Shown here: positions 57,803-59,767 of the stretch, piece by piece
Numbering within the stretch: position 1 is the first letter of the stretch
Layout: each line of letters opens with the position of its first letter
Source of the DNA: a bacterium SCSIO 12643
GTDB lineage: Bacteria > Bacteroidota > Bacteroidia > Flavobacteriales_G > Salibacteraceae
Length of the DNA stretch: 64,000 bases
NCBI GenBank assembly: GCA_024398135.1
Contig: CP073750.1
Location: 2,356,001-2,420,000, forward strand
Reading direction: 5' to 3'
Notes under the pieces: model-generated
What the model saw: only the letters and a program-made list of their open reading frames with translations
The model's database searches: none
What the model was told of the DNA's origin: nothing
Translations under genes and position numbers: made by a program

Positions 57803-59767
57803 GTGATAAAGAAAGAAACCATAGATAGGATTTTTGAAGCAGCCAGGATTGAAGAAGTGATTGGCGAATTCGTCAATCTAAAACGATCTGGAGCTAGTTA
57901 CAAAGGGTTGAGTCCGTTTGCAGAAGAACGTACCCCTTCGTTTATGGTTTCTCCTTCGAAGCAAATATTTAAAGATTTTAGTTCTGGTAAAGGGGGGAGT
58001 GTGGTTACCTTCCTGATGGAGCATGAACAAATGTCTTATCCGGAGGCGCTTCGATATTTAGCTGAAAAATATAATATCGAGATTGAAGAGACGGAATCTT
58101 CTCCGGAACAGGAAGAAGCTAAAAGTCACAGAGAAAGCCTGTATATTGTTTCTGACTGGGCTCAGAAGTATTTCCAAAATAATTTGCATGAAACCGATGA
58201 AGGAAAGGCCATCGGGTTAAGCTATTTTACGGAACGTGGATTTACCAAAGAGACCATAGAAACTTTTCAGTTAGGGTATGCTATAGATCAATTTGATGCA
58301 ATGGTTAAAGCATCAAAAGAGCAAGGGTTTAATTCTGACTATTTATTAGAATTAGGATTACTTAAGGATAAAGGGAAAGGTCTTTATGATGGATTCAAAG
58401 GACGTGTGCTTTTTCCTATCCAAAACCTTTCCGGTAGGACTTTAGGTTTTGGAGGTAGGACTTTAAAGACAGATAAAAAAATCCCAAAATACTTAAACTC
58501 ACCTGAGTGTGATATTTACCATAAGAGTAAAATAGTTTATGGGATATATCAGGCCAAGAAATACATGGTTAAAGAAGATGTTTGTTTTTTGGTTGAAGGA
58601 TATACGGATGTTATATCCATGCATCAGGCTGGAGTAAAGAATGTAGTAGCTTCTTCGGGAACTGCATTAACCAGTGAACAAGTACGTTTGATTGGGCGTT
58701 ATACAAAGAATATTACGATCTTATATGATGCAGACCCTGCAGGAATAAAGGCGTCCTTTAGAGGAATTGATATTATTTTGGCTGAAGGGTTAAATGTTAA
58801 AGCTGCATTACTACCGGAAGGTGAGGATCCTGACTCTTTTGCCAAGGCAAGAAAATTAGACGAAATCCAGACGTACTTTGATTCAAATGTCAGAGATTTC
58901 ATTCTTTTTAAAACACAGTTGTTAAGTGATGAAACGGCTGGAGACCCTTTAAAAAAAGCAGGGCTCATACGAAATATCATTGAGTCAATTTCAATGATAC
59001 CTGATAGTATTACCAGATCAGTATACACCAAAGAATGTAGTTCTTTACTTGATGTGCCAGAAAAAGCTTTGATTTCTGAATTAAATAAAATTCGGGTTAA
59101 AAAGCATAAAGATCAGATAAGAAAAGAAGCGGTAAAAAATGAGCCTCAATTTGATGAGCCACCACCAGAGTTTTTTGACCCGACTTTTAAAAAGGAGGAG
59201 AAAGTTGAAAGTACGACCTATCATCAGGAGAAGGATATTGTGAGATTGATGCTCAATTATGGACGAGTGGAGATTGATGTGGATTCTATAGATGAGGAGG
59301 ATAATGATATTATCATTAAGATGAAGTTGGCTGATTTTGTGGCAGAAGAAATACAAGCTGATGAATTGACCTTTGAAGACGTTGTGCTCCAAAATATTTT
59401 TGATACATATTTAGCGCAATTAAGTAATGACGAAAACAAAGACCCTATATTACATTTAACCTCATTGGAAGATGTGGCCGTAAGAGAATTGGTTTCGGAC
59501 TTAGTATCCGAAAAATATGTACTACATAATTGGCAAAGTCAAAATATTGAAGTGCAAACTGAAGAAAGTAAAATCTTCAGGGCAGTTACGGATGCATTAT
59601 ATGCATTTAAAGCACGGAAGATTAATGTAATTATCCATCAAAAAAGATTGGAACTAAAAGAAATACAAGAAAAAAATGGAGATATTTTAGATGTATTGAT
59701 GGAGTTGCAAAACCTGGGGGAAATCAAGCGTCAATTGCTTTCACAGCAAGGAATCACGATTTTTTAA
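57803..59767 (+). CDS. dnaG: DNA primase with altered zinc-binding motif
   Basis: 654 aa. It makes RNA primers at replication forks. Order: N-terminal zinc-ribbon-like domain (1-100), catalytic core with Toprim (YKGLSPF region to about 430; VCFLVEGYTDVISMHQAG and LYDADPAGIKASF), then a helicase-binding C-terminal domain. The CHCC zinc ligands are all replaced: Ser37, Ala40 (SPFAEERTPSF) and Asp58, Ser61 (KDFSSGKGG), where the family has CPFH and CFGC. The flanking residues are kept, so the fold probably remains without zinc. I recall the same change in other Flavobacteriia. Start is GTG. Confidence 0.94.
   Translation: MIKKETIDRIFEAARIEEVIGEFVNLKRSGASYKGLSPFAEERTPSFMVSPSKQIFKDFSSGKGGSVVTFLMEHEQMSYPEALRYLAEKYNIEIEETESSPEQEEAKSHRESLYIVSDWAQKYFQNNLHETDEGKAIGLSYFTERGFTKETIETFQLGYAIDQFDAMVKASKEQGFNSDYLLELGLLKDKGKGLYDGFKGRVLFPIQNLSGRTLGFGGRTLKTDKKIPKYLNSPECDIYHKSKIVYGIYQAKKYMVKEDVCFLVEGYTDVISMHQAGVKNVVASSGTALTSEQVRLIGRYTKNITILYDADPAGIKASFRGIDIILAEGLNVKAALLPEGEDPDSFAKARKLDEIQTYFDSNVRDFILFKTQLLSDETAGDPLKKAGLIRNIIESISMIPDSITRSVYTKECSSLLDVPEKALISELNKIRVKKHKDQIRKEAVKNEPQFDEPPPEFFDPTFKKEEKVESTTYHQEKDIVRLMLNYGRVEIDVDSIDEEDNDIIIKMKLADFVAEEIQADELTFEDVVLQNIFDTYLAQLSNDENKDPILHLTSLEDVAVRELVSDLVSEKYVLHNWQSQNIEVQTEESKIFRAVTDALYAFKARKINVIIHQKRLELKEIQEKNGDILDVLMELQNLGEIKRQLLSQQGITIF

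Follow-up and report, generated by a model that had tools for sequence, protein, structure and literature searches.

A zinc-less form of the replicative primase DnaG in Bacteroidota

Ribosomal proteins reportedly exist in zinc and non-zinc (C+/C-) forms, a distinction said to go back to Makarova et al. in 2001. The C+ and C- forms of ribosomal protein S4 are the closest analogue of the primase described here, in that the zinc site of a core information protein is disrupted in scattered lineages; those forms are attributed to transfer of genes and to a gene pool in early life, both forms being present in some genomes (PMC3087516). Animal Twinkle, which is T7 gp4-like, has a primase-type zinc domain without cysteines and has also lost primase motif residues and primase activity, according to PMC3610141. 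For DnaG itself, high conservation of the zinc ligands and recognition of the sequence by the zinc domain are described in a review (PMC6163395), and in T7 and plant primases it is reported to be the zinc domain that guides recognition of the template (PMC10557236). In the C. difficile primase, the preferred trinucleotide is reported to depend on one lysine next to a zinc ligand: the Lys form prefers CCC, as Aquifex does, and changing Lys to His gives less CCC and more CTA (PMC5204125).

The DnaG considered here is encoded in a window of 64,000 nucleotides (contig CP073750.1, positions 2,356,001 to 2,420,000, bacterium SCSIO 12643). It is like the DnaG proteins of E. coli, Bacillus and Aquifex (TIGR01391; 2au3, 1d0q) in family score, catalytic motifs and predicted ribbon fold, and has Lys57 in common with the Aquifex enzyme, but all four zinc ligands are replaced and there are accompanying changes at residues 34 and 60. 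Like Twinkle it lacks the cysteines of the primase-type zinc domain, whereas the catalytic motifs are kept. Unlike the case of the C+/C- ribosomal proteins, the genome has one DnaG, the replacing motif is fixed and the catalytic domain follows the family. Searches of an open-licence library turned up no description of zinc-less DnaG in Bacteroidota, judged by title and the start of the abstract.

The dnaG gene and its ribbon domain

The open reading frame at 57803-59767 is DnaG. In profile searches the protein scored 417.7 bits against TIGR01391 (cut-off 283.6), PF01807 (CHC2 zinc finger) matched residues 3-97 with 97.3 bits (cut-off 24.9), PF10410 matched residues 381-419 with 28.0 bits (cut-off 20.6), and Toprim families matched as well. 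The catalytic motifs GRTLGFGGR (211), PKYLNSPE (228), EGYTD (265) and YDADPAG (308) are present, the last two supplying the EGYxD and DxD of Toprim. Residues 431-654 are presumably the helicase-binding region expected for the family. The gene and its parts are as follows.

57803..59767, + strand: dnaG, replicative DNA primase, 654 aa, GTG start, the genome's only PF01807 gene
57803..58114, + strand: N-terminal ribbon domain, residues 1-104, without zinc ligands (PF01807 match; AlphaFold2 model against 1d0q)
58130..59092, + strand: catalytic (RNA polymerase) domain, residues ~110-430 (profile matches, motifs, model)
59093..59764, + strand: C-terminal part, residues 431-654 (PF10410 match just before)

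The search of the whole genome for a second, zinc-type DnaG gave one PF01807 match only, so there is no zinc-type copy as a back-up. Two other genomes were unusual in this respect. One (L330, G186) has, beside a zinc-less DnaG, a second PF01807 protein in a 251-aa open frame with CCCC, perhaps of mobile-element origin. In the other (L088, G276) the DnaG frame is broken, the ribbon lying in a 158-aa frame and the catalytic domain in a separate ORF, which may be a frameshift or an assembly error.

Alignment to the Aquifex primase (2au3) places Ser37, Ala40, Asp58 and Ser61 at the Cys, His, Cys and Cys positions, and the codons are AGT, GCA, GAT and TCT. The surrounding TPSFxVSPSKQIFK and GxGG are retained, and residues 1-105 contain no Cys and a single His (H74). 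Both the replacement of the four ligands and the keeping of their neighbours had been noted beforehand in the sequence, and both were confirmed. Because S, A, D and S stand at the CHCC positions, the ribbon is best described as a homologue of the CHC2 zinc finger and not itself a zinc finger. The residues that distinguish it are listed below, with their occurrence in other hosts. Host counts are from a set of 267 genera (132 zinc-less and 135 intact, one sequence per genus), which left out genome duplicates (L001, L032, L020 and others), proteins of <450 aa and the short or long-branched L061, L077, L065, L006, L090, L131 and L179.

57902..57904, + strand: Lys34; K/R in 87% (family-weighted) of zinc-less hosts, mostly Leu/Ile in intact ones
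57911..57913, + strand: Ser37 (AGT), ligand 1 Cys position; Ser in all zinc-less sequences read
57920..57922, + strand: Ala40 (GCA), ligand 2 His position; variable among zinc-less sequences
57971..57973, + strand: Lys57, preceding ligand 3; K in 132/132 zinc-less and 115/135 intact hosts
57974..57976, + strand: Asp58 (GAT), ligand 3 Cys position; D in 112/132 and C in 20/132 zinc-less hosts
57980..57982, + strand: Ser60; S in 131/132 zinc-less hosts; among intact hosts 96% (weighted) have Gly
57983..57985, + strand: Ser61 (TCT), ligand 4 Cys position; S or T in all zinc-less sequences read

Occurrence in hosts and phages

DnaG was read in 399 host genomes or records, many of which were chosen by motif so that the counts are not frequencies. 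CHCC was found in 187 and a zinc-less S-x-[CD]-[ST] in 212, 169 of the latter retaining no ligand residue and 43 retaining one (Cys58 or His40). Two or three of the four ligand residues were found in none of the 399. DnaG is thus like the C+/C- forms in having two discrete states. Two further genomes of the window's genus (L343, L344) have SSDS. Sequence error, chance and a pseudogene were considered as explanations and rejected, given the SSDS of the same genus and the 212 zinc-less genomes or records, the window's included; sequence error was one of two outcomes that the original prediction had named as fatal to it. The zinc-less DnaG is a genuine form of a core enzyme, and it is widespread.

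The sample was built up in stages. An even draw of the window's class comprised 149 genomes, 148 with a match, to which five further genomes of the class were added; 120 of the 152 readable ones are CHCC and 32 are zinc-less, the latter occurring in 14 of 64 families. Targeted searches and a motif scan with named records brought the total to 399. From a set of 228 genomes DnaG was read for some members (the 30 best matches, 29 chosen low scorers and others drawn), which gives no frequency for the phylum. The ribbon was unreadable in L088, L229, L329 and L366, which were dropped before counting, as were L212 (not DnaG) and L330 (the second PF01807 protein). The motif scan fixed the Asp58 type and the GKGG end and gave at least 119 loci. 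Since its pattern left residues 37 and 40 free, the presence of Ser37 in 115/115 readable records among the 119 loci listed is an independent check. Zinc-less names among the matches listed include at least 30 genera of Flavobacteriaceae, Chryseobacterium (the His being kept in 9/11 of those listed), Mucilaginibacter, Crocinitomicaceae and Cryomorphaceae. Two loci with non-Bacteroidota titles were without DnaG, and one was a false match.

By kinship label, the window's own family (f1) is zinc-less in 25 of 26 genomes, while the two other families of its order that were read (f43, f96) are CHCC in 7/7. Zinc-less forms are also found outside the window's class (f15, f17, f28, f32). Five families are mixed in state (f1, f2, f9, f53, f74) but no genus is. 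The expectation that the same change would be met in other Flavobacteriia held in so far as it is general in f5, the Flavobacteriaceae (14/14 genomes, one with a DnaG catalytic domain identical to that of Zobellia uliginosa); it failed in implying that the host belongs there too, since f5 shares the class of the window's genome and is of a different order. A CHCC genus was seen within f1 (L335, G366), the catalytic domain of which groups with f96 of the same order, pointing to transfer, misplacement or contamination.

The replacements follow a rule. With families weighted, zinc-less hosts have S37 in 100%, S/T61 in 100%, S60 in 98%, K63 in 98% and K/R34 in 87%. Residue 58 is always Asp or Cys, residue 48 is more hydrophobic, and residue 40 is unconstrained, with T, S, N, K, A, H, V, G or R. 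At most positions of the ribbon, conservation among the zinc-less forms is strong. Because of the weighted conservation of S37, S/T61, S60, K63 and K/R34, the pattern looks like selection on a defined alternative and not like decay. The codon type of Ser37 (AGY or TCN) varies within f1 and f7 and was given no weight.

Phage primases have both forms. Eight named phage records were read of 168 matching. Three of them are from Flavobacterium phages and one is from a Cellulophaga phage (L419-L422, Duneviridae); the primases of these four are all zinc-less, like those of the Flavobacteriaceae read, and differ in being annotated at >1000 aa. The other four records, one from a Porphyromonas phage and three from gut phages, have CHCC. 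Among the best 80 of 450 viral matches to the zinc-less alignment, a set which overlaps the eight records through a contig of the length of phage laban6-1, 24 are zinc-less and 56 CHCC. All 24 have Ser37, Asp/Cys58 and Ser/Thr61, but at the accompanying positions the rule is less strict than it is in hosts (Lys57 21/24, Ser60 20/24, Lys34 12/24). One viral sequence (L459) is SCCS, with two Cys. These few records hint that the type of primase head goes with the host.

Origin of the zinc-less state

A tree of the catalytic domain without the ribbon was made from 239 rows, the named Flavobacteriaceae being thinned to 12. It has 24 changes of state, at least seven of which are forced by well-supported branches. 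For 69 rows, hand-chosen to include both states of the mixed families, the catalytic domain gave 12 changes, at least five of them forced in the same way, and a single zinc-less clade was rejected (lnL cost 336, p-AU 1.4e-5). This bears on the original prediction, which took the zinc-less state to be one old lineage trait, inherited vertically. Such inheritance would agree with the uniform state of f5 (14/14) and of nearly all of the window's family (25/26), but it is contradicted by the rejection of one clade, by the five mixed families, by the intact state of f43 and f96 (7/7) within the window's own order and by the zinc-less forms outside the class, and is now hardly credible. As far as the sequences can tell, it gives way to recurrent, rule-bound loss of the ligands. 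Whole-gene paralogy was also considered and is not supported, the catalytic domain mostly following the family labels.

The ribbon gave a different picture when it was analysed alone. For the same 69 rows the ribbon tree has four changes instead of 12, with the zinc-less rows clustering, and one zinc-less clade was not rejected (p-AU 0.18). In f1, f2, f53 and f74, zinc-less rows have their top ribbon match in a zinc-less ribbon of another family, though many more rows compete among other families' zinc-less ribbons in this comparison. Such results would be expected if the zinc-less ribbon had a single origin or a small number of origins and recombination then carried it around as an N-terminal segment, perhaps through primases of phages or elements, without moving the catalytic domain; the presence of both forms in phages would fit as well. 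However, when 16 state-correlated columns were removed from the ribbon, the number of changes rose from four to 11, the clustering loosened, and f2, f53 and f74, the three mixed families tested, were not rejected as clades. In 5/5 mixed families, zinc-less rows share on average more ribbon identity with the intact form of their own family than with the zinc-less forms of other families. Furthermore, in f17 and f28 the zinc-less ribbons are placed with intact ribbons from outside the class (98/98), which indicates at least two origins. Transfer of the segment is thus the less probable account, with a minor but real share of the credence, and these comparisons favour repeated convergent change. 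Because one zinc-less clade is still compatible with the ribbon data (p-AU 0.20), 'convergent' is a less secure term here than 'recurrent on the catalytic-domain tree'. An alternative concerning origin and one concerning metal or function can hold together.

Fold, metal and template reading

An AlphaFold2 model was made from the window protein and 67 zinc-less relatives. Its mean pLDDT is 90.7, with values of 86-92 per ten-residue block over residues 1-90. Over 97 residues the model ribbon superimposes on zinc-bound 1d0q at 1.2 A, with a Z of 17.2, an agreement which may echo known zinc-bound folds, and Foldseek gave 0.8 A over 92 columns. Against 2au3 the model has Z 34.1 and an rmsd of 8.6 A over 399 residues, the two domains being oriented differently. 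The ribbon fold is therefore predicted to be kept without the zinc ligands, a prediction on which the AlphaFold2 model is silent as to stability without metal.

Another metal, or zinc held on other residues, might in principle take the place of the CHCC site. Ser, Asp and Ser/Thr are possible oxygen ligands, and residue 58 in hosts is solely Asp or Cys. Zinc bound by other residues was the second outcome named as fatal to the original prediction, and it was looked for: a pair of Cys elsewhere within residues 25-75 was found in 0/132 zinc-less hosts, and the ribbon of the window's DnaG contains a single His and is free of Cys. Given that residue 40 is free, that residue 58 is Cys in 20/132 and that there is no other Cys pair, a replacement metal appears unlikely, and we give the idea very little weight.

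The lysine that apparently sets specificity in C. difficile would correspond to Lys57 of the window protein, judging from the description in that paper and the 2au3 alignment. The suggestion that template recognition may differ from that of other bacteria was left unsupported, the fold being predicted unchanged and Lys57 being present in 132/132 zinc-less hosts. A metal-free ribbon which still reads the template is the likeliest mechanism. A domain usually described as requiring zinc can apparently do without it.

We consider it probable, with good though not complete confidence, that the window's DnaG is a working replicative primase and that its N-terminal ribbon, the part that reads the template, can fold and do its work in the absence of zinc. 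The looser rule in viruses counts against this reading, as does the review's account of conserved zinc ligands and of a zinc domain that recognises sequence (PMC6163395). Hydrogen bonds of hydroxyl and carboxylate side chains, together with the more hydrophobic residue 48, would replace zinc as the pin between the knuckles. Surface residues such as Lys57 would still let the ribbon read single-stranded template, and the ribbon would pass the first nucleotides on to the catalytic domain. Many lineages would have arrived at this state separately, by convergence. The ribbon could instead be a relic, with priming being site-independent, or primase activity could have been lost as in Twinkle, for which the animal protein is a precedent (PMC3610141). 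Twinkle, however, has lost catalytic motif residues that the window's DnaG keeps, this DnaG is the only one of its genome, and most zinc-less ribbon positions are strongly conserved, so that a relic is very doubtful.

A natural replicated experiment is at hand in related genera with and without the ligands, including bacteria that can be grown, and in their phages. It makes testable the role of zinc beyond folding, the residues that set priming sites and the matching of phage and host primases. It also calls for caution in the design of drugs against the zinc site of primase.

The presence of the four-cysteine zinc module of DnaX, the clamp loader, was compared with the state of DnaG. In 79 chosen readable Bacteroidota genomes the module is all-or-none, with four Cys in 48 and none in 31, and in five genomes DnaX has a longer spacing with 4 Cys. 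DnaG is also zinc-less in 26 of the 30 genomes with a zinc-less DnaX and a known DnaG state. For 78 chosen genomes, the combinations of DnaG and DnaX are zinc-less with zinc-less in 26, zinc-less with zinc in 22, zinc with zinc in 26 and zinc with zinc-less in four. A kinship-aware pairs test of DnaX against DnaG gave nothing on just three supported pairs. The association is suggestive, and coupling is not claimed. It is conceivable, and we put it forward tentatively as something that may well be wrong, that the zinc-free head is a stable alternative state, reached convergently many times and matched in phages, as part of a move of the Bacteroidota replisome, DnaX included, away from zinc, with reading independent of metal and possibly other rules for priming sites.

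Other proteins of the window's genome were also inspected. Its DnaX (L508, G000:C1:826231-827262) is without the four-cysteine zinc module. LigA, the DNA ligase, keeps its Cys4 site (L516 and L507 being the L36 and LigA entries), and ribosomal protein L36, compared with the C+ form, looks to be of the zinc-less type.
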